Assembly (NCBI GenBank): GCA_022775005.1
Contig: JALFJR010000103.1
Location: forward strand, 1 to 36,742
DNA from: Parabacteroides sp.
GTDB taxonomy: Bacteria > Bacteroidota > Bacteroidia > Bacteroidales > Tannerellaceae
Reading direction: 5' to 3'
DNA length: 36,742 bases
The translations under genes were made by a program, and so were the position numbers. A model generated the notes under the pieces. That model ran no database searches. It was not told the DNA's origin and saw only the letters and a list, made by a program, of their open reading frames with translations. Shown here piece by piece: positions 2,195 to 31,140 of this stretch. Within the stretch, counting starts at the first letter, position 1. Each line of letters opens with the position of its first letter.

Positions 2195-2416
2195 ATGGCA
2201 CTTTTTAGAGTAACAGTAAAGCAGATGAAGAATACGAATGGTATTCGAGTAGAGAAAGGAATGAGTGTTGAGGTCGTTACGAACTCGATGTCTAATCCGG
2301 TGACAACAAACGGCGGTCAGGCAGTGGCAGATGCGTTCTATCGTATCTATGGCATTGATGCCAAGAAAGCGGGAATCCTCTCCACTGTCTATTTGGATGT
2401 GCAACGGATTGGTTAA
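2195..2416 (+). CDS. DUF6140 family small protein
   Basis: 73 aa. The sequence (MALFRVTVKQMKNTNGIRVE at the start, then a conserved SNPVTTNGGQAV block at about 33-44 and FYRIYGIDAKKAG at 48-60) matches my memory of DUF6140 proteins of Bacteroides and relatives, short beta-rich proteins of unknown function. It is the first gene of the operon that extends to about 8209. The 107-base gap upstream (2088-2194) is very AT-rich and probably holds the operon promoter, but I see no clean -7/-33 pair there. DUF6140 leading a multi-gene cassette with an AAA+ ATPase suggests a scaffold or adaptor, but that is inference. Confidence 0.75.
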   Translation: MALFRVTVKQMKNTNGIRVEKGMSVEVVTNSMSNPVTTNGGQAVADAFYRIYGIDAKKAGILSTVYLDVQRIG

Positions 2417-2435
2417 TGTCTAACGTATTTCTCAA

Positions 2436-2897
2436 ATGATTGTATTGAAGTGTATCAATGGATCGTTCGCAGGGATGCGTCTGCATGGTGTCCCTTTCGA
2501 GCGCAAAGTACTCCACATGCATGGTGTGGAGGCGGAGGGAGTTTTCCCAGTGTTTCAAGGAATCAAGGTAGAATTGCTTGCCGATGTGGATACGCTTTAC
2601 CATCAGTTGGGTAATACGGATCAGGCATTTTATTGGGGCACGATGAGGGAGGCGACCAAGGTACTGAAAGATGTATTGCGTTGCACTCCCTCTTTGAGTG
2701 CTCAGTTTTCCGCTCAGCAATTGGAGGATATTGCGCAGGAGAAAGGGCAGATTATGGGTAAGGTATGGCATCATTATGAGGAACTCACCGCTGATGGCCG
2801 TCCTATCATGCAGTTGGTGGATCGGGAGCCGCATCAAAAATGCAAGCATACCGGTGGTAGTTATACTTGGAATCCCAAGCATTTTCACAGAGAATAA
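2436..2897 (+). CDS. Hypothetical protein of the AAA+/FtsZ-like operon
   Basis: 153 aa, 19 bases after the DUF6140 gene. No signal peptide or membrane segment. The N-terminal third looks beta-rich, the middle is helical (DQAFYWGTMREATKVLKDVL region), and the C-terminus is rich in His, Lys and aromatic residues (CKHTGGSYTWNPKHFH at about 135-150). The clustered Cys/His could bind a metal, but no standard HNH or zinc-ribbon spacing is present, so I do not claim a nuclease. Family not recognised. Short intergenic distances on both sides indicate cotranscription. Confidence 0.6.
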   Translation: MIVLKCINGSFAGMRLHGVPFERKVLHMHGVEAEGVFPVFQGIKVELLADVDTLYHQLGNTDQAFYWGTMREATKVLKDVLRCTPSLSAQFSAQQLEDIAQEKGQIMGKVWHHYEELTADGRPIMQLVDREPHQKCKHTGGSYTWNPKHFHRE

Positions 2898-2915
2898 GAA
2901 TAAATAGTAATTAGA

Positions 2916-3275
2916 ATGGAAACTTTTGAGGAGATATTGGCTTCCTATTTGGAGGCTTTCGAGCAACATCCGGATCAGGATGTGGAGCAGCTGATCGCAC
3001 AGAAGACCACTGAACATGGTCTTTCGGATAAAGGCAGGGCCTTGCTACAAGGGACAAATGCTTATTTAGATGATTTTCAGCAGAAAGTAGAAGAGATTGC
3101 TGACGCTAAAAGGTCAAAGGTTGGCTTGAATACTTGGTTCTCAAATAACCTTGACCAAAGTTTGGATGGATTGGAAGAGGGACAAAAAAGCGTTATGTGT
3201 GATACACTTTTGAAACAGATGACACAACAAACCGAACGTTTAATTGCTAAGGAGGAGAGTCATGGAAAATCTTAA
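2916..3275 (+). CDS. Small helical hypothetical protein
   Basis: 119 aa, 18 bases after the preceding gene. The composition (Glu, Gln, Leu, Lys) and heptad-like spacing suggest an almost wholly alpha-helical protein: METFEEILASYLEAFEQHPD opens one helix and LLKQMTQQTERLIAKEE closes another. No catalytic motif or membrane segment is visible. Its last 14 bases overlap the start of the next gene, so the two products are probably made in linked amounts and may interact. Family not recognised. Confidence 0.55.
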   Translation: METFEEILASYLEAFEQHPDQDVEQLIAQKTTEHGLSDKGRALLQGTNAYLDDFQQKVEEIADAKRSKVGLNTWFSNNLDQSLDGLEEGQKSVMCDTLLKQMTQQTERLIAKEESHGKS

Positions 3276-3930
3276 AATGGTAGGTGCTCAATTAGTTGAT
3301 CAAGCACGAAAGCAAGATGCTATAGAATCTCTTTTATTAGGGCAAGAGTTACCTATAGATCAGATTCCTATAATTAAGGAATTTAGTGTAATGAAAGAGT
3401 TTCTGGACTTGCCGATGGATGATCCCAAAGAGGTTGCCTTGAAGAAAATCATAGCAGCGGCCATAGTCACAGCTGCCGAAAAAGGAGTGTTACCCATTCC
3501 TATGGAAATAAGTTCTGAAGCTATAGCCAGTTTAGTGGATGATGGATTAACACGCATAAAGGTAGCCTATAAAGTAGCAAATGGTGATCTGAATGCTATT
3601 AAGGCCACTGAAGCAGTGGTTAACCATAGTATGGCTCGTGTTGTGACTGTCGTTAAAAAGGTCGCCGATAAACTGATTGATCAAGCACTACCGATAGTGG
3701 CTGATGCTGCACTCAATGCGATTTTGATGGTTTACCCTCAAGCGCAACTGCTAAAGCCTTATGTATGTCAAGTGCTTCCTTACGTCGGTCCGATGGTAAA
3801 ACAGGCAGTTCATATTGGAGTTAACCGAATAGCGGAAATGGCAAAACCTGTAGTTAAATCCATCATTACCTCTATAGCAGCTGAAGGTAAGACTATTTGT
3901 TCAACCCTAAAAAATGTTCTTTTTGCATGA
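3262..3930 (+). CDS. Hypothetical helical, partly hydrophobic protein
   Basis: 222 aa from ATG 3262, chosen because AAGGAGGAG precedes it and because it gives a compact overlap with the upstream gene; a start at 3244 would only add a few poorly placed residues. The protein is rich in Ala, Val, Ile and Lys with long amphipathic helices, and has marginally hydrophobic stretches around residues 58-75 and 145-190 (LPIVADAALNAILMVYPQAQ). It could associate peripherally with membrane or form a helical bundle, but no clear transmembrane segment is evident. Its stop overlaps the next start as ATGA (3927-3930), indicating translational coupling. Family not recognised. Confidence 0.6.
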   Translation: MENLKMVGAQLVDQARKQDAIESLLLGQELPIDQIPIIKEFSVMKEFLDLPMDDPKEVALKKIIAAAIVTAAEKGVLPIPMEISSEAIASLVDDGLTRIKVAYKVANGDLNAIKATEAVVNHSMARVVTVVKKVADKLIDQALPIVADAALNAILMVYPQAQLLKPYVCQVLPYVGPMVKQAVHIGVNRIAEMAKPVVKSIITSIAAEGKTICSTLKNVLFA

Positions 3931-4994
3931 CCTTGATACCTATTGCAAAACCGGTTCGGATTCGCATCAAGTCTGGAGGCGAAGAACATTCCTCTTTGGA
4001 ATCATTGAAACGAAATTTCTGTCTGGAGGACATAAAACCGCTGTTGGATGGACGTTTGATTCGTTGGTTGCAACGGTTAGGAAAGAAAGAACAAATGTTG
4101 GCAGATAAGTTGAAAGCTTTTGATACCAATCGATTGGAACGAGAGGAAGGTATGTTCGCCTTTATTCAACTTTTTTTTGACCAAGAATTAGATGCAGCCC
4201 ATTTGCGCTCTTTGCAAGATGTGGCTCAACATTGGCTGACTAATCCAAACTATCAACGTAATGGTATTTATTTAGTGAAAGCTTTTTTCGAATCGGATGT
4301 GCAATGGACTGATTTAACTCTTGCAAAAGAAGTGTATAAAAAACGACTTTTTCCTACACAAGATTGGTCGGCCATTTTTAAAGGTTTTCTATACCAAAAA
4401 GATCCGGAATTGTTTTTTATCTATGGCAAACTGTTGTATGAAGGCATCGGTTGTACCAAAGATGATGTGACAGGTCGCAAATACATGAATGAGGCATATA
4501 GTTTGGGTTGGGAAGAGGCAGGAACTTATCTGAAGCGTGCTGAAGATCAGTCCATATTAGAGAATAGAAACCTGGTTCGCAAAGCAGTGTTAGAGATTAT
4601 TCGGAAAGAGATGGCGATTCATGCCATCAATGATCGTACACCCATCAGGTTTATGCTTTATTCCCATTTGAGAGATCAATTGCTTGAACAGTTTAATGTT
4701 ACAATAAGTAGTAGAGATCTTCAGGACTATAAAACTGCTGGTGAGTTAGCGGATTTCATCGTGAAAAGGATCCCTGCTGAAACTCCGAAGAACAAAATGA
4801 CATTAAAGATAGATTTAGAACGATGGAAAAATGGGTGTACATACACAAATTTTGTTACCAATGAGGATTGTGAACGTTTGTGGCAGCTACTTAAAACGAA
4901 GTATCAATTGGAGATACCATTTAGTGCGTTAATAGGAAGAAGGGGGCGCAGTCGTTTGATCATTGATTATGTTTTATCCCAGTATTCCGAATAA
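3927..4994 (+). CDS. Sel1-repeat protein with ACP-like helical modules
   Basis: 355 aa from ATG 3927, which overlaps the upstream stop as ATGA; the frame is open further upstream, but only from a TTG inside the previous gene. Residues 20-51 contain a motif (SSLESLKRNFCLEDIKPLL then DGRLIRWLQRLG) that I have seen at the start of various Bacteroidota accessory proteins. Residues 157-203 fit a Sel1/TPR-like helical repeat. Residues 215-281 and 309-353 each read like an acyl-carrier-protein fold (LLEQFNVTI, then KTAGELADFIVKRI; LLKTKYQLEI, then IIDYVLSQY). The usual DSL phosphopantetheine motif is not intact, although a Ser lies near its place (YSHL, about 245-248). It lies nine bases before the AAA+ gene. 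A scaffold or adaptor role is inferred. Confidence 0.55.
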   Translation: MTLIPIAKPVRIRIKSGGEEHSSLESLKRNFCLEDIKPLLDGRLIRWLQRLGKKEQMLADKLKAFDTNRLEREEGMFAFIQLFFDQELDAAHLRSLQDVAQHWLTNPNYQRNGIYLVKAFFESDVQWTDLTLAKEVYKKRLFPTQDWSAIFKGFLYQKDPELFFIYGKLLYEGIGCTKDDVTGRKYMNEAYSLGWEEAGTYLKRAEDQSILENRNLVRKAVLEIIRKEMAIHAINDRTPIRFMLYSHLRDQLLEQFNVTISSRDLQDYKTAGELADFIVKRIPAETPKNKMTLKIDLERWKNGCTYTNFVTNEDCERLWQLLKTKYQLEIPFSALIGRRGRSRLIIDYVLSQYSE

Positions 4995-5003
4995 CGAACA
5001 GCT

Positions 5004-6515
5004 ATGAACACAAAAGTTATTTCTGCCTTTCAAAAGATGATAGATGTTAATACACCTATCATCTATATCCATGATTATGATTTCGCTCGGGTGGATGCCT
5101 TGATTGAAGAAGTGATTCCTGATATAGATAGTATATATGAGTGGAACCCTGCAACGGGAACCACAAACTTTGCAACCAAGGAACCTGAAGGAAATGGAAC
5201 GGAAACGAAACTTGATGTTTTTTTGAACCAGCTATTTAATTCTTCTCAAGAGCAATATGTGGTCTTGAAAGAGGTTCATGATTTTTTAGATGATCCCAGG
5301 ATTAAAACCCTTTTAGCCTTGATGGCTCAACGTAAACTTTATGATCGAGACTATGAAACGACTATTATTATTGTCTCCTCTGTCTTGCGTGTGCCTTCGG
5401 AGCTTGAAAAGTATGTTTCTTATTTGGAGATTGATTTCCCGAATGAGGAAGAGATTAATACTTTGATTGACCAACATATCGAGGTAAACTTTTATGATAA
5501 AGAGAAGTTTACGAAGGCTGACCGGGAAAAATTGATGCCCTCACTGAAAGGAATGACTGCATTTGAGATTGACCGAATGCTTGATATGGCAATGAGTAGC
5601 AATGGTTCTTTAAGTGCAGAGGATACGGAGATGATCTTGCGCCAAAAGAAGCAAATGGTCAAAAAGTCTGGATTATTGGAGTTGATTGACACCCCTGAAA
5701 GTTTGGATAGCATTGGCGGTATGGAGGCGTTGAAAAGCTATTTGAAGAAAAAGGAAAAGGTGATCAAACGTTTGGCTGAAGCGCAAAAACAGGGCGTTGC
5801 TGTACCGAAAGGTGTGTTCATAGTTGGAATGCCAGGATGTGGTAAATCTCTCTGTGCTAAGGCCTCAGCTGCATTGTTTGAAGCTCCTTTGCTGAAATTA
5901 GATATGGGTAGTATGATGGGTAAATACGTGGGTGAAAGTGAATCTAATCTACGTGCGGCGATCAAGATTGCTGAAGCGGCTGCTCCTTGTGTTTTATGGA
6001 TTGATGAGATTGAGAAGGCTTTCTCAGGTGTAGGTGGTCACAATGATATTTTGACCCGCATGTTTGGTTATCTGCTCTCTTGGTTACAAGATAAGCAGAG
6101 CAGTGTCTATATTATTGCCACAGCTAACAATGCAGAAAGTTTACCACCAGAATTAAAACGTAAAGGACGTTTTGATGAGATCTTTTGTGTGAACTTGCCA
6201 AATAAGGAAGAGCGGAAAGCCATTTTCAAAGTGCATTTGGGGAAACGCAAGAAAAAGTTGGGAGAAAATATAGATGGTTTACTAAACGCCACTGAAGGAT
6301 TTAATGGCGCAGATATTGAATCGGTTGTGAATGAGGCGATAGAGGATTGCTTCATCAATCAAGAACCATTGAGTATCGCTAAATTGACACAGGTTGCGAA
6401 TGAGACGGTCAGTATCACTAAATCGTGTGGCAAGCAGATAGAGGCGATGAAAAAACTATTCGATGAAAATTGTTTTAAGGATGCCTCGACAGGAAAGTAT
6501 ACAAAACGGAGGTGA
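5004..6515 (+). CDS. AAA+ ATPase, Ycf46-like/classical FtsH-spastin clade
   Basis: 503 aa. The N-terminal region (1-220) has the Ycf46-type opening in which a strand such as TPIIYIHDYDFARV is followed by a YEWNPATG element. The AAA+ module spans about 235-460: Walker A GMPGCGKS (275-282), pore-loop-like KYVGES (307-312), Walker B VLWIDE (330-335), sensor 1 in ATANN (372-376) and a second-region-of-homology motif KRKGRFDEIF (385-394) with arginine-finger candidates. All key residues are present, so it should be an active hexameric remodelling ATPase. No protease domain is fused. It is the only clearly energy-coupling enzyme of the operon and probably acts on a neighbouring product; the substrate is unknown. 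Confidence 0.85.
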   Translation: MNTKVISAFQKMIDVNTPIIYIHDYDFARVDALIEEVIPDIDSIYEWNPATGTTNFATKEPEGNGTETKLDVFLNQLFNSSQEQYVVLKEVHDFLDDPRIKTLLALMAQRKLYDRDYETTIIIVSSVLRVPSELEKYVSYLEIDFPNEEEINTLIDQHIEVNFYDKEKFTKADREKLMPSLKGMTAFEIDRMLDMAMSSNGSLSAEDTEMILRQKKQMVKKSGLLELIDTPESLDSIGGMEALKSYLKKKEKVIKRLAEAQKQGVAVPKGVFIVGMPGCGKSLCAKASAALFEAPLLKLDMGSMMGKYVGESESNLRAAIKIAEAAAPCVLWIDEIEKAFSGVGGHNDILTRMFGYLLSWLQDKQSSVYIIATANNAESLPPELKRKGRFDEIFCVNLPNKEERKAIFKVHLGKRKKKLGENIDGLLNATEGFNGADIESVVNEAIEDCFINQEPLSIAKLTQVANETVSITKSCGKQIEAMKKLFDENCFKDASTGKYTKRR

Positions 6516-6546
6516 GTGTGCTTGCAGCCAAAATAAATGAAGAAGC

Positions 6547-7314
6547 ATGATACTGAAAGAATTATTTGATCGGGTCACATTCGATCAGTTGCTGCCTTAT
6601 CTATTACCGAGGATAGAAGGGCATGAGGACAATATTCATCATTTTCGAGAGGCTTACGATTTGATTAGCCTCTATGAACCTATACAGGGTTTAGCAACGG
6701 CTGTATGGATCAGTGATGATGAGGATGTAGATAACGCATATCATATTGAGGTTCGTTTTTTAGATGGTGATACTTGGCCTCATGCGTTAGCTAAAGAGGT
6801 CATTTTTGAGGAGGGTGTCGTTTTCAACGAGGCAGAAGTGTTGGCTGCGTGTCTATGGGAGATGACCTTCTATGGGTATTCAGAGGAGGAAATTACTGGC
6901 GAAGGGGATGAGATTGGTTTCTCTTATGAGCCCAAGTGGGTACTGAACGCACAATATGAGCGTTTAAGTAAAAGGATGGATAAACATGGCTATCGCTGGA
7001 AGCACAAACTGAACCGAGCAAAACGGAAACGCAACTACAGACAAAGCGCACGATTGGATCTGTTGGAATGCTTGGCAAAACGGGAAACCTTGATCTTGCG
7101 CATGAAAGAGGCTTTCCCTGATGAGCGTTTGGGATTCTTGTTATCGATTGATCGGGGTATGGAGTATCATTATCGTTCCACTCTTGCGGGTGGTAATGAA
7201 CGATTACCTTATATCTTGAAATCGATGACGGTTTACCAGCAGATGGATAAATCTCCGTATGAAGAAGCTTATGTTTGGGCCTATTTGCCGAGTAATTTCC
7301 CTTGGCTGGAATAG
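6547..7314 (+). CDS. Hypothetical protein with an in-frame TAG before its apparent C-terminus
   Basis: 255 aa to the TAG at 7312-7314. The frame stays open for 40 more codons to TAA 7435-7437, and the extra stretch is protein-like (DWLHFQEEVRRWLGMPVHFG, then a short hydrophobic end). The gene was therefore probably about 296 aa and has acquired a nonsense mutation. Visible parts are an acidic alpha/beta N-terminal domain (ATAVWISDDEDVDNAYHIEV) and a very basic helical middle (WKHKLNRAKRKRNYRQSARL, about 156-175). I recall similar Bacteroidota proteins but cannot name the family. It may be a functional truncated protein or a young pseudogene. It lies 31 bases after the AAA+ gene. Confidence 0.6.
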   Translation: MILKELFDRVTFDQLLPYLLPRIEGHEDNIHHFREAYDLISLYEPIQGLATAVWISDDEDVDNAYHIEVRFLDGDTWPHALAKEVIFEEGVVFNEAEVLAACLWEMTFYGYSEEEITGEGDEIGFSYEPKWVLNAQYERLSKRMDKHGYRWKHKLNRAKRKRNYRQSARLDLLECLAKRETLILRMKEAFPDERLGFLLSIDRGMEYHYRSTLAGGNERLPYILKSMTVYQQMDKSPYEEAYVWAYLPSNFPWLE

Positions 7315-7487
7315 GATTGGCTCCACTTTCAGGAAGAGGTTCGCCGATGGTTAGGTATGCCTGTCCATTTTGGAACAGTTCTGAAAGAGATGAGTTGTGA
7401 CGAGATAGGTGTATGTCTATTGATGCTTAAAAGGTAAAAATAGTCTATATATGGTATTTGGAACAACAACCTTTAAATGATTAAGCT

Positions 7488-7973
7488 ATGCATACAAACA
7501 ATTCAGAAAAGTCGCTCTTGATTGCTATGGGAACGGGAGCGAACAACATGGTGATAGGATATTTGTGTGAGCGATTAGCGGATCAAGTAGATTTCGTCTT
7601 GATTGACTCACTGGATCAGAAAGAGTGGAACAAGGAATTGCCTGATACAAAATTGCAGGCATTGAAACAAAAGGAATCGTCAGTTATCTTATTGGTAATG
7701 TTGGGCGGGAACACCGGCAGTGGCTGTGTGGAAAAAATTATTCCATTACTTCAAAAGCATCAGCTGACTTTTTCAGCGATTGTGGTATTACCATTTGAAT
7801 ATGAAGGCACACGACCTAAGGCGTTGCCTTTGGCCGAAAAGTTAAAGGAGGCGGCTGTAGCTTATCGTCAATTCGATAATCAAACTCTTCTCGCCTTGCA
7901 AGATCTAACCATGAGAGAGGCGATGCAACATGCGGACAAAGAGATAGAGAAATTGCTGATGGAAATACTGTGA
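7488..7973 (+). CDS. Minimal FtsZ/tubulin-like nucleotide-binding protein
   Basis: 161 aa. Residues 10-21 (LLIAMGTGANNM) correspond to the T1 loop region of FtsZ. Residues 73-79 are GGNTGSG, a tubulin signature (FtsZ GGGTGTG). The following VVLPFEYEG at 99-107 matches FtsZ KPFxFEG, and the C-terminal helix (TMREAMQHADKEIEKLL) matches helix H7. The protein stops there: it lacks the T7 loop with its catalytic Asp and the whole C-terminal domain, and the T2-T3 region looks shortened. It may thus bind GTP but be unable to polymerise or hydrolyse it like FtsZ. It shares an operon with a Ycf46-like AAA+ protein, and its stop overlaps the next ATG. The superfamily call rests on motifs only. Confidence 0.7.
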   Translation: MHTNNSEKSLLIAMGTGANNMVIGYLCERLADQVDFVLIDSLDQKEWNKELPDTKLQALKQKESSVILLVMLGGNTGSGCVEKIIPLLQKHQLTFSAIVVLPFEYEGTRPKALPLAEKLKEAAVAYRQFDNQTLLALQDLTMREAMQHADKEIEKLLMEIL

Positions 7974-8209
7974 TGCAAAATGAATGGGATGGACTGCCCA
8001 AAGAAACAGGTCAGCGGATTTGTCGTTTAGATGAGGCTATCCGTGCAGCTAAAGAAAATACTTTGGTCGATCTACATATAGTTTGCAAAGATAGTTTTTT
8101 CTTTTTGAATTGTCGTTGTAATTCTGCGAAATCTCCCCGCGAGCCGCGGGAGCTTTTTTCAGGGGTGATATTTCTTCCCGCGAGCCGCGAGAGCCTTTTT
8201 CAGGGGTGA
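7973..8209 (+). CDS. Short hypothetical ORF running into the 41-bp repeats (probably truncated)
   Basis: 78 aa from ATG 7973, which overlaps the stop of the FtsZ-like gene (TGATG). The first 53 codons (MQNEWDGLPKETGQRICRLD onward, ending near FFLNCRCN) look like ordinary coding sequence. From about base 8130 the frame passes through the tandem hairpin repeats, and the last 25 residues are just their translation. The likeliest reading is a gene whose 3' end was replaced by the repeat array. Coupling to the FtsZ-like gene suggests it was part of the same system. Confidence 0.4.
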   Translation: MQNEWDGLPKETGQRICRLDEAIRAAKENTLVDLHIVCKDSFFFLNCRCNSAKSPREPRELFSGVIFLPASRESLFQG

Positions 8210-8362
8210 TATTTCTTCTCGCGAGCCGCGAGAGCTTTTTTCAGGGGTGAAATTGCTTCTCGCGAGCCGCGGGAGCTTTTTTCAGGGGTGATATTTGCTC
8301 TCGCGAGCCGCGGCGACCTTTCTACAGGGTGAAATTGCTTCTCGCGAGCTGCGGCGACATCA
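8125..8362 (+). repeat. Tandem array of 41-bp hairpin repeats, six units (array 1)
   Basis: The core GCGAGCCGC (last unit GCGAGCTGC) recurs at 8139, 8180, 8221, 8262, 8303 and 8344, exactly 41 bases apart each time. Each unit is centred on an inverted repeat such as CTCGCG-AGC-CGCGAG, and in the first four units the stem is followed by AGCTTTTTT or a near copy, so on the plus strand they resemble intrinsic terminators. The remainder of the unit carries AGGGGTGATATTTCTT or a variant. The last two units are diverged (GCGGCGAC). No unique spacers are present, so this is not a CRISPR. Confidence 0.9.
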
Positions 8363-8385
8363 GGTTTACACAATCTGGATAATCG

Positions 8386-8415
8386 TTGCAATGAGGAGAA
8401 TAATTTGTACTTTCG
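8386..8415 (+). promoter_or_regulatory. Bacteroidota-type promoter for queA
   Basis: TTG at 8386-8388, a 19-base spacer and TACTTTCG at 8408-8415 fit the Bacteroidota sigma-ABfr consensus (TTG, N19-21, TAnnTTTG) with one deviation. Transcription should start near 8421, giving a leader of about 30 bases to ATG 8452. Confidence 0.65.
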
Positions 8416-8451
8416 CGCAGGAATCTTGCCAGAGTGAGATCCGTGCTTTTT

Positions 8452-9681
8452 ATGATGATGACGACAGAGACGAAACAGATACGTATGGAGGATTATGACT
8501 ATCCTCTGCCCGATGAACGCATTGCAAAATTTCCATTGGCAAAGCGCGACGAATCCAAGCTACTTTTATATCGTAAGGGTGAGATCGAAGAGAATCAATT
8601 CAAACGGCTTCCTGACTTCTTGCCGACCGATGCCTTGATGGTGTTCAACAACACGAGGGTTATCCAAGCGCGCCTGTTTTTCCAAAAAGAGACGGGTGCA
8701 CGCATCGAGGTCTTTTGCTTAGAGCCTTTCCAACCCCTTGATTATGCGTTGGTTTTCCAACAGACAACTTCCTGTGTGTGGACCTGTTTGGTGGGTAACT
8801 TGAAGAAGTGGAAAGAGGGCACCTTGCATCGCTCTGTCACGATCGGAGCAGATGAGGTGGTGCTTCATGCGGAGAAATTGGCATCGCATGGCGATACGCA
8901 CGAGGTTCGTTTCTCTTGGGACAATGCGCATTATACCTTTGCCGACATCTTGGACGCGGCAGGCGTGCTGCCTATTCCTCCCTATTTGCATCGAGCCACT
9001 GAGCAGAGCGACTTGCAGACCTACCAAACCGTTTATTCCAAGATCAAGGGTTCGGTAGCGGCACCTACCGCCGGTTTGCATTTCACGCCGGAAGTCTTGG
9101 CGGCTATTGACGAAAAGGGAATTGGTAGAGAGGAGGTTACTTTGCATGTGGGTGCTGGTACGTTTAAGCCGGTTAAGAGCGAGACAATCGAGGGACATGA
9201 GATGCACACAGAGTTTATCTCTGTACGCCGAGAGACAATCGCTCATCTGAAGAGTAAAATAGGTCACATCATCGCTGTTGGCACCACCTCCGTGCGTACG
9301 TTGGAAAGCCTCTATTATATAGGTGTCATCCTGTCCACTCAGCCGGAAGCAACCTCCGAGGAGCTGGTGGTCAAGCAATGGATGCCTTACGAGGCCGCGA
9401 ATAACCAACTGACCGCAGAGGAGGCTTTACAAAACATCTTGGATTACTTAGACCGTCATCAAGCGGATAAGTTGGTGACTGCCACACAGATCATCATCGC
9501 TCCGGGCTATACGTTCAAGTTGGTGAAAGGAATTGTGACCAATTTCCATCAACCCAAGAGCACACTGCTACTGCTCATCTCCGCCTTCGTGAAAGGTGAT
9601 TGGCGGAAGATCTATGATTACGCATTGGCGCATGATTTCCGTTTCTTAAGTTACGGAGACAGTTCTTACCTTCAATTTTGA
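8452..9681 (+). CDS. queA: S-adenosylmethionine:tRNA ribosyltransferase-isomerase (QueA family)
   Basis: 409 aa from ATG 8452 (an upstream GTG at 8434 is less likely given the promoter). QueA transfers and isomerises the ribosyl moiety of SAM onto preQ1-modified tRNA to give epoxyqueuosine. Diagnostic blocks are YDYPLPDERIAKFPLAKRDE near the start, VAAPTAGLHFTPEVL in the middle, GAGTFKPVKSE and HEMHTEF shortly after, and VGTTSVRTLES. The protein is about 55 residues longer than typical QueA (about 350 aa). Bacteroidota often carry such a longer paralogue, so it could be a paralogue with altered substrate rather than the main QueA. It lies 10 bases before porE. Confidence 0.85.
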   Translation: MMMTTETKQIRMEDYDYPLPDERIAKFPLAKRDESKLLLYRKGEIEENQFKRLPDFLPTDALMVFNNTRVIQARLFFQKETGARIEVFCLEPFQPLDYALVFQQTTSCVWTCLVGNLKKWKEGTLHRSVTIGADEVVLHAEKLASHGDTHEVRFSWDNAHYTFADILDAAGVLPIPPYLHRATEQSDLQTYQTVYSKIKGSVAAPTAGLHFTPEVLAAIDEKGIGREEVTLHVGAGTFKPVKSETIEGHEMHTEFISVRRETIAHLKSKIGHIIAVGTTSVRTLESLYYIGVILSTQPEATSEELVVKQWMPYEAANNQLTAEEALQNILDYLDRHQADKLVTATQIIIAPGYTFKLVKGIVTNFHQPKSTLLLLISAFVKGDWRKIYDYALAHDFRFLSYGDSSYLQF

Positions 9682-9691
9682 GTTTTGAATT

Positions 9692-11662
9692 ATGAATGAT
9701 AGAGTACTGTATTTTTTGATGCTCCTTCTTTCGCTTTGCGCTTGTCGATCAGCCAAGTTGAGCGAGGCGGAGGAAAAGCAACGGATTGGCGAGTATTATG
9801 AGGCAGCCGCTATCTATCGGAAGGTTTATACGAAGACCTCACCCCAGAAACGGGATTTGCGGGGGTATATCGCTTTCCGCATGGCTGAATGCAATCGACT
9901 GATTAACAATACAGGAAAGGCTACCAGTGGCTATATGAACGCCATTCGCTACGACTATCCGGATAGCATCGTCTATCTGCGTTTGGCACAGATGCAGCAC
10001 AAGGCTGGAGCCTATGCGGAAGCTATCAAGAATTACGATATTTATTCCGAGAACGCACCAAGCAGCCAATTGGCGATCAATGGCATACAGGGCTGCGAGC
10101 TGGCTCCCGGATGGCGAAAGAACCCTACCCGCTACGAAGTGCATCGCATGGAGAAATTCAATTCCCGCCGAGCAGAGTTTAGCCCGATGCTGACGGGTGA
10201 CAAGTATGACCAACTCTATTTTGCCTCTTCTCGCACCAAAGACAAGGAGGCCAAGATCAGTGCGATCACCGGGCAAAACAACAATAATCTTTTCTTGGTG
10301 AAACAAGATGAGAAGGGAGCTTGGTTAGCGCCCCAAGAATTGGAAGATGAGGTGAATACGGAGTTTGACGAAGGTACACCCTCTTTCTCCGCTGACGGGA
10401 ACACCATGTATTATACCTATTGTGCCCAAGATCCGGAAGGACCACGAACCGCAGAAATTTACATCTCCAACCGGAGTAGCGCCAAATGGGGAAAAGGTAC
10501 CCGAGCGACGATCGTAAAAGATTCCGTGACGGCTTTGGGACACCCTTCCATCTCACCCGATGGGAAATATCTCTACTATGTATCGGATGCGGTAGGTGGA
10601 TTAGGGGGAAAAGATATTTTCCGTTCTAAGGTATTAGGCAACAACAGCTTCGGGCCTATGGAGAATCTGGGGCAAGAGATCAACACCGCCGGCGACGAGC
10701 TTTTCCCCTATTGTCGTGATTCTGTCACGCTTTACTTCGCCTCCAACGGCCATCCAGGGATGGGTGGATTGGATTTATTTAAAGCCACCCAAGACAGTAC
10801 CGGCCATTGGAAAGTGGAGAACATGGGAGCTCCCATCAATTCCATGGGCGATGATTTTGGCATCACCTTCGCCGGACAGGCAGAAAAAGGTTTCTTTAGC
10901 TCCAACCGCAACGATGCTCGAGGTTATGACCACCTCTATTCGTTTGAGCTGCCTACGATTACGATTTCCATCGAGGGCATAGTCAACGACGTGGATGAAT
11001 ACCCGATCGAGGAGGCCACCGTGCGCATCGTTGGTAAAGATGGCTTGAACGTGAAGGTCCCGGTCAAGAAGGATGGCTCCTATCGGGTAGAATTGGAGCG
11101 GGATATTCGTTATGTGATGATGGCGAGTGCCCGAGGCTACCTCAATCAGAATTATGAGCTGCACACCGGCCCGGAGGAGAAGAACGAGACCTATATCGTC
11201 GATTTCTTCCTCTCTCCCATCAGCAAACCGGTGGTCATCGAGAATATCTTCTATGATTTCGACAAAGCCACCCTGCGGCCAGAGTCGAAGAAAGCGTTGG
11301 ACGAGATGATTAAGATGCTGAACGACAACCCTAACGTCACGATTGAGCTGGGTGCGCATACTGACCGTAAGGGTACGGATCAGTATAACGAACGGTTGGC
11401 CAGTCGCCGAGCTCAATCCGTGGTGGATTACTTGATTGCAGGGGGTATCAAGGCCGATCGCTTGGAGGCGAAAGGGTATGGCGAGAGCGTGCCCAAGACC
11501 ATCAACAAGAAAATGGCCAAGCAGTATGACTTTTTGAACGAAGGGGATGTTTTGACGGAAGAGTTTATCTTGAACCTGACACCCGAGCAGCAGGAGATCG
11601 CCGATCAGATCAACCGACGGACGGAGTTCAAGGTGCTACGTACGAATTATAACCTGTTTTGA
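9692..11662 (+). CDS. porE: PorE-like lipoprotein: TPR, beta-propeller, CRD and OmpA peptidoglycan-binding domains
   Basis: 656 aa. A lipoprotein signal with LCAC places the lipidated Cys near residue 18. TPR-like helices follow at about 25-140 (AEEKQRIGEYYEAAAIYRKV), then WD40/PD40-type propeller repeats at about 150-420 (recurring FSADGNTMYY, ISPDGKYLYY, RDSVTLYFAS), a carboxypeptidase-regulatory-like domain at about 425-510, and an OmpA C-terminal domain from about 515 (FYDFDKATLRPES, then ELGAHTDRKGTDQYNERLAS with the peptidoglycan-contacting Asp and Arg). This order and length match Porphyromonas gingivalis PorE, which links the type IX secretion machinery to peptidoglycan. It acts in the periplasm, attached to the outer membrane. 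The exact orthology is from memory. Confidence 0.8.
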   Translation: MNDRVLYFLMLLLSLCACRSAKLSEAEEKQRIGEYYEAAAIYRKVYTKTSPQKRDLRGYIAFRMAECNRLINNTGKATSGYMNAIRYDYPDSIVYLRLAQMQHKAGAYAEAIKNYDIYSENAPSSQLAINGIQGCELAPGWRKNPTRYEVHRMEKFNSRRAEFSPMLTGDKYDQLYFASSRTKDKEAKISAITGQNNNNLFLVKQDEKGAWLAPQELEDEVNTEFDEGTPSFSADGNTMYYTYCAQDPEGPRTAEIYISNRSSAKWGKGTRATIVKDSVTALGHPSISPDGKYLYYVSDAVGGLGGKDIFRSKVLGNNSFGPMENLGQEINTAGDELFPYCRDSVTLYFASNGHPGMGGLDLFKATQDSTGHWKVENMGAPINSMGDDFGITFAGQAEKGFFSSNRNDARGYDHLYSFELPTITISIEGIVNDVDEYPIEEATVRIVGKDGLNVKVPVKKDGSYRVELERDIRYVMMASARGYLNQNYELHTGPEEKNETYIVDFFLSPISKPVVIENIFYDFDKATLRPESKKALDEMIKMLNDNPNVTIELGAHTDRKGTDQYNERLASRRAQSVVDYLIAGGIKADRLEAKGYGESVPKTINKKMAKQYDFLNEGDVLTEEFILNLTPEQQEIADQINRRTEFKVLRTNYNLF

Positions 11663-11681
11663 GAAAGGAGTATATCAAACA

Positions 11682-12200
11682 ATGATCACCCTTTATTTGG
11701 CACGACACGGACAAACCGAGCAAAACCTGGCGCACATCTTCCAAGGGCAAATGCCGGGCAACCTGACCGCCTTAGGCCGACAGCAAGCCGCCGAATTGGG
11801 GGAGCGGCTGCGTGCGATTCCGTTCGATAGCCTCCTGAGTAGCGACCTCGCCCGTGCTTATGACACGGTAGAGATTGCTTGCGGCGATCGTCACCTCCCC
11901 CATTACACCACCCCCTTGCTTCGAGAGATCGACTGGGGCAGCTGGACAGGTTTGGACATCACCCCTGAGCGAAGCCTGCTGATGCGTCCGGCCGATGCCG
12001 AGAGCGATGCGCAACTCTACGAACGAGCCGCCCGCTTCGTGGAGTACGTCAGGCAGCACTTCGAGGGGCAGACCCTGTTCGCCGTCGGGCATGGCATGAT
12101 CAATCGCCGCATCATCGCCCAAATCGAAGGCCTTCCTTTGGAGCGCGTCAAAGAGGTGCCCCTCTTCACCAATTGCGAATATCGCCGGCTGACGTTATAA
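11682..12200 (+). CDS. Histidine phosphatase family protein (phosphoglycerate mutase-like)
   Basis: 172 aa. The RHG signature (LARHGQTEQN, catalytic His9) opens the protein, and VGHG near residue 143-146 provides the second catalytic His. Arg residues expected of the phosphate pocket are present (R8 and LSSDLARAYDT near 46-56). Length and motifs fit the CobC/GpmB-like branch of the superfamily, so the substrate cannot be told from sequence. It begins 19 bases after porE and may be cotranscribed. GC content rises from here into the RiPP cluster. Confidence 0.85.
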   Translation: MITLYLARHGQTEQNLAHIFQGQMPGNLTALGRQQAAELGERLRAIPFDSLLSSDLARAYDTVEIACGDRHLPHYTTPLLREIDWGSWTGLDITPERSLLMRPADAESDAQLYERAARFVEYVRQHFEGQTLFAVGHGMINRRIIAQIEGLPLERVKEVPLFTNCEYRRLTL

Positions 12201-30802: not shown

Positions 30803-31140
30803 ACTTTTTCCAGCTTGTTCCCGAGCGGGAATACGTTAGAAATGTCCTTTCCAGCCTGTTCCCGAACGGGAATACGTTAGAAATGTCCTTTCTTGCCTGT
30901 TCCCGAACGGGAATACGTTAGAAATGTCCTTTCTTGCCTGTTCCCGAGCGGGAATACGTTAGAAATGTCCTTTCTTGTCTGTTCCCGAACGGGAATACGT
31001 TAGAAATGTCCTTTCTTGCCTGTTCCCGAACGGGAATACGTTAGAAATAGCCTTTCTTGTCTGTTCCCGAACGGATTCACGTTAGAAATACCCTTTCTTG
31101 CCTGTTCCCGAGCGGCGGCACGTTAGAAATAACCTTTCTT
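30803..31140. repeat. Tandem array of 41-bp hairpin repeats, eight units (array 2)
   Basis: TTCCCG recurs at 30818, 30859, 30900, 30941, 30982, 31023, 31064 and 31105, exactly 41 bases apart. Each of the first six units contains TTCCCGAACGGGAA or TTCCCGAGCGGGAA, a near-perfect palindrome, followed by TACGTTAGAAATGTCC and CTTTCTTGCCTG. The last two units have decayed stems (ACGGATTC, GCGGCGGC). There are no variable spacers. The sequence is unlike array 1 but the period is the same. Confidence 0.9.

Follow-up and report, generated by a model that had tools for sequence, protein, structure and literature searches.

The stretch of DNA analysed here (36,742 nucleotides, hereafter the window) is one whole contig (JALFJR010000103.1, labelled G000:C59) of the 3.1-Mb draft genome of a Parabacteroides sp. 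(assembly GCA_022775005.1), and carries at positions 2195-8209 a run of plus-strand genes that begins with a member of the DUF6140 family and includes a nuclease, an AAA+ ATPase and a minimal FtsZ-like protein. Judged from its sequence, this run is a putative modular conflict cassette marked by DUF6140, most likely anti-phage and located at a chromosomal hot spot, a reading to which we give about an even chance. The cassette looks like an assembly of modules that are found separately elsewhere, rather than one fixed new machine: DUF6140 and the nuclease are paired both here and in a sister species, and the AAA+ ATPase is found together with a helical protein in two other phyla. The defence reading is based on the family of the nuclease, the neighbours of other DUF6140 genes (WYL regulators and proteins that match PADLOC models), the McrC context of the AAA+ homologue in an Exiguobacterium plasmid, the CARF, PP2C and kinase context of its homologues in Enterobacterales plasmids, the exchange of modules at the site and a G+C content (GC) of the cassette genes (0.39-0.48) under that of the right flank (0.519). 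The locus belongs to a modular kind of conflict locus, in which the new elements are DUF6140 as a marker and the FtsZ domain in its minimal form. Genomes are labelled G, contigs C and loci L, with G000 for the window's own genome and G028 for the sister species.

Gene content of the cassette and its counterpart in a sister species

A first-pass annotation had described this region as an uncharacterised operon of nine closely spaced genes. The nine open reading frames (ORFs), all on the plus strand, their order and their spacing are borne out (intergenic distances of 19, 18, -14, -4, 9, 31, 173 and -4 bases, including the 14-base and the two 4-base overlaps already reported), and the grouping of the cassette genes, given the named families and the operonic spacing, is beyond chance. 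The families over their Pfam cut-offs were DUF6140, colicin-DNase/WHH, AAA+ and DUF6557-like, with tubulin/FtsZ just under; no Pfam family exceeded its cut-off for the 119-, 222- and 355-amino acid (aa) proteins, and no NCBIfam model did so among the ten proteins submitted. In PADLOC, which displays no cut-offs, the AAA+ protein matched IetA models and the other window matches were weak.

The first gene (2195-2416, + strand), taken here as the marker of modular loci, was rightly named as DUF6140 in the first-pass annotation (PF19637, 9.6e-40); no paper on this family was found in the literature searched. The second (2436-2897, +), whose identity had been overlooked, codes for a stand-alone 153-aa nuclease of the WHH/colicin-DNase type (HNH/ENDO VII), the proposed effector, which exceeds the cut-offs of PF12639 (7e-12; 46.4 vs 25 bits) and PF14414 (7e-7; 29.3 vs 25.1 bits) and contains the family residues WHH at residue 111 and HTGG at 138. 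It is 90% identical to a protein of the sister species, where it also adjoins DUF6140, and 35% identical to an HNH endonuclease of the Exiguobacterium plasmid, and it had no match among PDB sequences.

Bacteriocins and polymorphic toxins typically carry WHH and colicin-DNase domains, which counts for an alternative in which DUF6140 and the nuclease are the leftovers of an interbacterial toxin unit, and the remaining genes are unrelated to it, having accumulated as immunity or cargo genes at a hot spot of recombination. This alternative is also favoured by the Exiguobacterium plasmid, in which the nuclease homologue is followed, about 10 kb from the AAA+ genes, by a gene of the SMI1/KNR4 family, which is used for immunity. 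However, the nuclease of the window is a bare 153-aa domain in which no export or delivery part was seen, such a nuclease is present in only one of 24 other DUF6140 loci, and the neighbouring genes include several for intracellular NTPases and WYL regulators, making the toxin origin unlikely.

The third gene (2916-3275, +) codes for a 119-aa helical protein with a weak LeoBC match (3.6e-4); its homology to the N-terminus of helical proteins encoded in plasmids, suggested by eye, was unsupported on comparison. Further downstream, between the AAA+ and FtsZ-like genes, lies a gene (6547-7314, +) for a 255-aa DUF6557-related protein (PF20194, 2.1e-10) that stops at a TAG at 7312 in a frame that stays open until 7436, and this continued frame makes up most of the 173-base gap 5' of the FtsZ-like gene. 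A 337-aa homologue in L098 reads through the equivalent position, and this gene copy is probably truncated, or the TAG is an error of the draft sequence. The last ORF (79 aa), which had been counted as a cassette gene, was rejected as such because it lies mostly in chromosomal DNA common to the sister species (96% identical from base 8004) and runs into 41-bp repeats.

The sister species occupies the same site, with 96% DNA identity to positions 8004-12200 of the window and 87.5% to 2140-2885 (DUF6140 and nuclease), and has about 105 bases in place of the 5.1 kb between them (2886-8003). Because G028 carries DUF6140 and the nuclease at this site without the AAA+/FtsZ segment, the latter can be regarded as an exchanged or inserted module. 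At the position of the GTPase trio that precedes the cassette in the window, G028 has two dynamin-like genes with their partners (Dynamin_N; LeoA/LeoBC-like), and its island opens with a 620-aa WYL-domain protein. A 620-aa WYL protein, 97% identical to the latter over 574 aa, is found in the window's own genome in contig C1, which contains the left flank of the site and matches G028 at 96.4% over 4.8 kb of that flank; C1 then continues with a gene run that by eye resembles a recombinase-carrying mobile element, and also contains a 664-aa gene, a Sel1-like gene and, at the contig end, a stretch like the end of an insertion sequence (IS). We infer that C1 and C59 join through an IS copy. Since the modules differ between close species at one site, this site can be considered a hot spot.

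Defence-type genes at other DUF6140 loci

DUF6140 was found in 10 of 38 genomes of the genus and in 11 of 295 of the order (own genome included in both), and 24 DUF6140 loci outside the window were compared, including the second locus of its own genome. Their neighbours comprise dynamin pairs (L088, L089, L092), a TerB-dynamin pair one gene after DUF6140 in L096 (PADLOC matches to LeoBC at 1.1e-90 and LeoA at 9.7e-86), IetA-matching AAA+ proteins (L100, L106), AriA/PtuA-like ATPases (L087, L094), PDC-S26-like proteins (L107, L108), a HEC-06-like protein (L110), the nuclease (L089), an FtsZ-like gene (L095) and relatives of the DUF6557 gene within about 5 kb (L097, L098). PADLOC matches at 1e-3 were obtained for 13 of 20 proteins encoded at or near DUF6140, from 10 of the 16 loci covered (of the 24), and L090, L093, L103, L104, L105 and L109 gave no PADLOC match. 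WYL regulators are present at 7 of the 24 loci vs none of 20 control stretches of 16 kb, 19 from DUF6140-bearing contigs and one from G279 (Fisher 0.011). DUF6140 loci, then, often adjoin known or candidate defence genes, which is an association and no proof. WYL-family regulators co-localize with phage defence, the WYL-domain protein BrxR represses a defence island and 48% of BrxR homologues co-localize with known defence systems (PMC9122601). If the defence reading is right, DUF6140 would offer a means of locating such cassettes in Bacteroidales genomes.

Several observations weigh against a defence function. No WYL gene was found in 17 of the 24 loci, and of the seven that were found one, at the edge of its locus, is a fragment. 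In addition, three of the five seed sequences of the WYL profile had been taken from DUF6140 loci. The first ten PADLOC queries were picked by eye (nine matched) and the next ten, from further neighbours, yielded four matches, while two of ten control proteins, submitted out of 20 drawn, also matched (one a beta-galactosidase-type model, the other PDC-S01 at 5.4e-84). No immunity family was matched for the nuclease in the Pfam, NCBIfam and PADLOC scans, and a nuclease without an identified immunity gene could therefore be a secreted or contact-type toxin domain. The interrupted 255-aa gene means that this copy of the cassette may be partly decayed. Finally, DUF6140 has no match in G002, a genome that carries an FtsZ-like gene, and in G020 it is matched only on another contig. 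As to immunity, DUF6140 or the 119-aa protein might act as the putative partner of the nuclease.

The AAA+ ATPase, its companions and the FtsZ-like protein

The AAA+ gene (5004-6515, +) codes for a complete ATPase, in agreement with the first description (AAA, 2.2e-29; motifs GMPGCGKS, VLWIDEIEK, IATANN and RKGRFDE, corresponding to the Walker A, Walker B, sensor and Arg motifs), which is here labelled Ycf46-like, a name that no library model returned. A degenerate N-terminal AAA-like domain would be expected of this type; the protein has an N-terminal domain, of which 250 aa are conserved with plasmid homologues, the closest of which are those of Exiguobacterium (NZ_CP081879, 46% identity) and Microcystis (NZ_CP025929, 45%), both over 96% of the length. 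The 222-aa protein (3262-3930, +), a helical, hydrophobic member of the AAA+ module, has a glycine-rich relative in both plasmid operons, which, like it, is encoded two genes upstream of the AAA+ gene. Its homology to these glycine-rich proteins was detected by blastp within a seven-protein set (3.4e-7 for Microcystis, 2.0e-4 for Exiguobacterium) and by hhalign (probability 91, E 1e-6), and the plasmid proteins themselves match the glycine-zipper/YtxH models of Pfam under cut-off. The gene between the two (3927-4994, +; 4-base overlap with the preceding gene) codes for the 355-aa protein, whose N-terminal part is related to the product of the gene that immediately precedes AAA+ in Exiguobacterium (pairwise E 5e-5, with 30% identity over 73 aa); the gene at this position in Microcystis, between helical protein and AAA+, codes for a CobW-type protein. 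The Sel1/ACP-like character formerly ascribed to the 355-aa protein falls under the Pfam cut-offs (PP-binding 0.00099, Sel1 0.099), and across 295 order genomes it was found in its own and as one weak match. The AAA+ protein is thus accompanied by the 222-aa helical protein, joined in a single instance by the N-terminal part of the 355-aa protein, and because the pair recurs in plasmids of other phyla, helical protein and AAA+ form the truly conserved unit.

The context of this unit varies. In Exiguobacterium, McrC and AAA ATPase genes lie just before it. In Klebsiella and Enterobacter plasmids, the gene for a 37-38% identical AAA+ homologue is preceded by one whose product matches the glycine-zipper model weakly (0.015, in L059 only), and for this product no blastp homology to the 222-aa protein was found. 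The gene order in the Enterobacterales plasmid loci L059 and L060 is vWA, hypothetical, AAA+, DUF1887 CARF, hypothetical, PP2C, kinase and AAA, a cluster that looks like a signalling-type conflict system. The AAA+/helical-protein pair, which Bacteroidota, Bacillota and Cyanobacteria share and which Enterobacterales plasmids carry in a looser form, is a unit of separate interest. The N-terminal half of the AAA+ protein is found in one of the 38 genomes of the genus, in 11 of the 295 of the order (profile, 1e-10, own included) and in 4 of the 296 of the phylum (1e-20, own included), and a scan of viral contigs with the AAA+ protein gave nothing useful. In other Bacteroidota (L064, L070, L072, L074), the AAA+ homologue is the last gene of a run, after a long gene (incomplete in L072, where the contig ends) and genes for 754-756 and 209-228 aa; the two L064 proteins of such a run that were searched had no family match, and in L069 the preceding genes code for 926 and 210 aa. 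A Treponema plasmid homologue (L077:8100-9524) lies among genes annotated as VgrG/Pvc8 contractile injection protein and baseplate protein V, and the AAA+ family may therefore also serve contractile injection particles.

The FtsZ-like gene (7488-7973, +) codes for a stand-alone FtsZ GTP-binding domain of 161 aa. The tubulin signature noted at first is supported by a Pfam Tubulin/FtsZ match under cut-off (4.6e-6) and by a computed fold that is that of the FtsZ GTPase domain, to which the protein aligns over its full length; it contains GGNTGSG for the GGGTG(T/S)G of loop T4 and PFEYEG for PFxFEG, and G73, G74, T76, P102, F103 and E106 are invariant in five FtsZ-like members. Aligned with the full-length FtsZ of the same genome, the protein terminates in H7, and lacks T3, T7 and the C-terminal domain. 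The T7 loop and the C-terminal domain of FtsZ are needed for filament-coupled GTP hydrolysis. Because the full-length FtsZ is encoded elsewhere in the genome (contig C35), the 161-aa protein is not the division gene. The 50 matches listed for it are FtsZ or CetZ, a list that leaves room for other families. In a profile search of 277 class genomes (264 with a match), the frames among the matches listed outside the own genome were of at least 343 aa, FtsZ type by length, the exception among those listed being a 244-aa frame in G904. No match to the FtsZ-like gene was found in phages, plasmids or viral contigs (the last a scan for close relatives only), and nothing points to its having come from a phage or plasmid.

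Four further loci carry an FtsZ-like gene, located in G002 at 759 bases from the contig start and, in another locus, beside an IS scar. The FtsZ-like gene and DUF6140 are neighbours in L095 and lie some 5 kb apart in the window, and WYL genes are present in two of the four other loci (L021, L112). In L112 of G215 (7413-9180), the WYL regulator is followed, in the same orientation, by a gene for a stand-alone FtsZ domain of 235 aa, and in L095 of G025 (6198-6381) an IS256-like end appears to have deleted the start of DUF6140. A second type of modular operon was observed in Parabacteroides (L020, L021, L087), with a membrane protein of 299/300 aa and varying sets of Sel1, DUF3944 and M48 or YgjP-like peptidase genes; it adjoins the FtsZ-like gene in L020 and L021, and DUF6140 in L087. 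If the reading proposed here is right, this small family of FtsZ domains that end just before the T7 loop would become a test of whether the nucleotide domain of a filament protein can be reused as a switch or decoy.

The first-pass annotation had proposed an AAA+ machine controlling the FtsZ-like subunit. Such a machine, in which the two NTPases would form a single dedicated apparatus and the small helical proteins would act as adaptors, would be consistent with the common operon and strand, the close spacing and the intact frames of both genes. However, an interrupted gene and a 173-base gap separate the two in the window, and they are apart in every other locus examined: none of the four other FtsZ-like loci has this AAA+ (1e-4), and none of 16 loci of AAA+ homologues (13 from Bacteroidota and 3 from plasmids, L057, L058 and L059, with several stretches ending at contig ends and plasmid loci L060 and L077-L082 left out of the scan) has an FtsZ-like gene. 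In these loci the homologues of the two genes are thus not neighbours, the outcome that the first-pass annotation had named as refuting its proposal; the pairing is not supported, a fixed AAA+/FtsZ machine was rejected, and a dedicated apparatus of the two is very unlikely.

Another explanation would be a stress or cell-division control module (Ter-like or membrane-remodelling) with no role in phage defence, whose FtsZ domain acts on the division ring. It is suggested by the FtsZ-type domain itself, by the DUF3944, Sel1 and metallopeptidase neighbours of the FtsZ-like relatives in G002 and G020, and by the TerB and dynamin domains in L096, but the patchy distribution (the AAA+ N-terminal part in one of 38 genus genomes), the low GC, the presence of a nuclease and the defence-type neighbours make it distinctly improbable.

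Under the anti-phage reading, the cassette would be silent until infection, with its transcription presumably under a WYL-type regulator by analogy with BrxR (PMC9122601). The hydrophobic 222-aa helical protein would be placed at or near the membrane, where the AAA+ protein may work on it or on a captured target; the FtsZ domain could bind GTP as a sensor, brake or decoy without forming normal filaments, and the WHH nuclease would be the effector that cuts DNA. A bolder version, which we regard as a long shot, is abortive infection through an FtsZ decoy: in the DUF6140 immune cassettes of Bacteroidales, infection would free the bare FtsZ domain, which, unable to extend filaments, would cap or poison the host FtsZ ring, and division would stop while the nuclease destroys the DNA.

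Relation to known systems and features of the site

The defence system IetAS is composed of an AAA+ protein (IetA) and a subtilisin-like partner protease. The AAA+ protein of the window resembles IetA in matching its models (PADLOC 1.4e-29; NCBIfam 9e-27), although membership was rejected, given a score of 94.2 bits against a curated cut-off of 510 and no protease model among the window Pfam hits. The LeoABC-type pair of dynamin-like GTPases is not among the window proteins, and is present at the same site in the sister species. The Exiguobacterium and Microcystis operons share with the cassette the AAA+ and the helical protein, and the former also a relative of the 355-aa N-terminus and, at the distance given above, of the nuclease, whereas neither DUF6140 nor the FtsZ-like and 255-aa proteins had a match in their 25-kb stretches.

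The cassette also resembles the conflict systems centred on DO-GTPases and GAP1, some with tubulin and HSP70 components, in that those are modular, variable operons joining NTPases, membrane-linked proteins, tubulin homologues and effector domains (Kaur et al. 2020, PMC7159879). It differs from them in that its NTPase is a Ycf46-like AAA+ protein and its tubulin homologue a bare GTP-binding domain. Pfam holds GAP1 models, and no GAP1, FNIII or HSP70 model was among the Pfam hits of window proteins (this contig's part only); membership in the GAP1 systems was rejected on the lack of a GAP1 model among these hits. Among FtsZ side families, a long coiled coil together with a helical C-terminal domain is found in most members of FtsZl1, and FtsZl2 proteins have some 300 further residues in their C-terminal region (Makarova and Koonin 2010, PMC2875224). 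Membership in either was rejected for a 161-aa protein without residues after H7. The impression that no system of this composition has been described was sustained by literature searches for the combination, which found no description of such a cassette; the nearest precedents were the systems of PMC7159879 that pair GTPases with tubulin and HSP70, and the FtsZl families of PMC2875224.

The window begins with the end of an IS256-family element (1-143, - strand), which is also the contig end and is 95% identical to annotated IS256 transposase stretches of Bacteroides plasmids; the IS was the sole match when plasmid DNA was searched with the window. It is followed by an AT-rich trio, the first gene of which (148-822, +; GC 0.319) codes for a small Arf/Ras-like GTPase with a hydrophobic N-terminus (Arf PF00025, 2.6e-6, over cut-off), its start being uncertain because the IS ends just upstream. 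The other two code for proteins without a Pfam match, of 157 aa with a C-terminal hydrophobic stretch seen by eye (826-1299, +) and of 250 aa (1335-2087, +). The trio, already suspected to be an added or independent module, is separate from the cassette, with a GC of 0.32-0.35 vs the 0.39-0.48 of the cassette genes. The genes flanking the site are, as we presume from inspection of their sequences, ffh, folD and queA, the site lying between ffh and queA.

At the other side of the cassette are the 41-bp tandem repeats (8133-8353). A motif search of the own genome (up to 3 mismatches) located this motif solely beside its two DUF6140 loci (8133-8353 and G000:C60:24848). Taken as a class, tandem repeats show no enrichment at DUF6140 loci (12 of 24 vs 8 of 20 controls), and the link is therefore restricted to this specific motif. 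By eye, the repeat has a hairpin and a T-run, and arrays resembling it are also present at the G028 loci L089 and L090. A further tandem array, with a 41-bp unit in about 7 copies, is located at positions 30816-31111 of the window.

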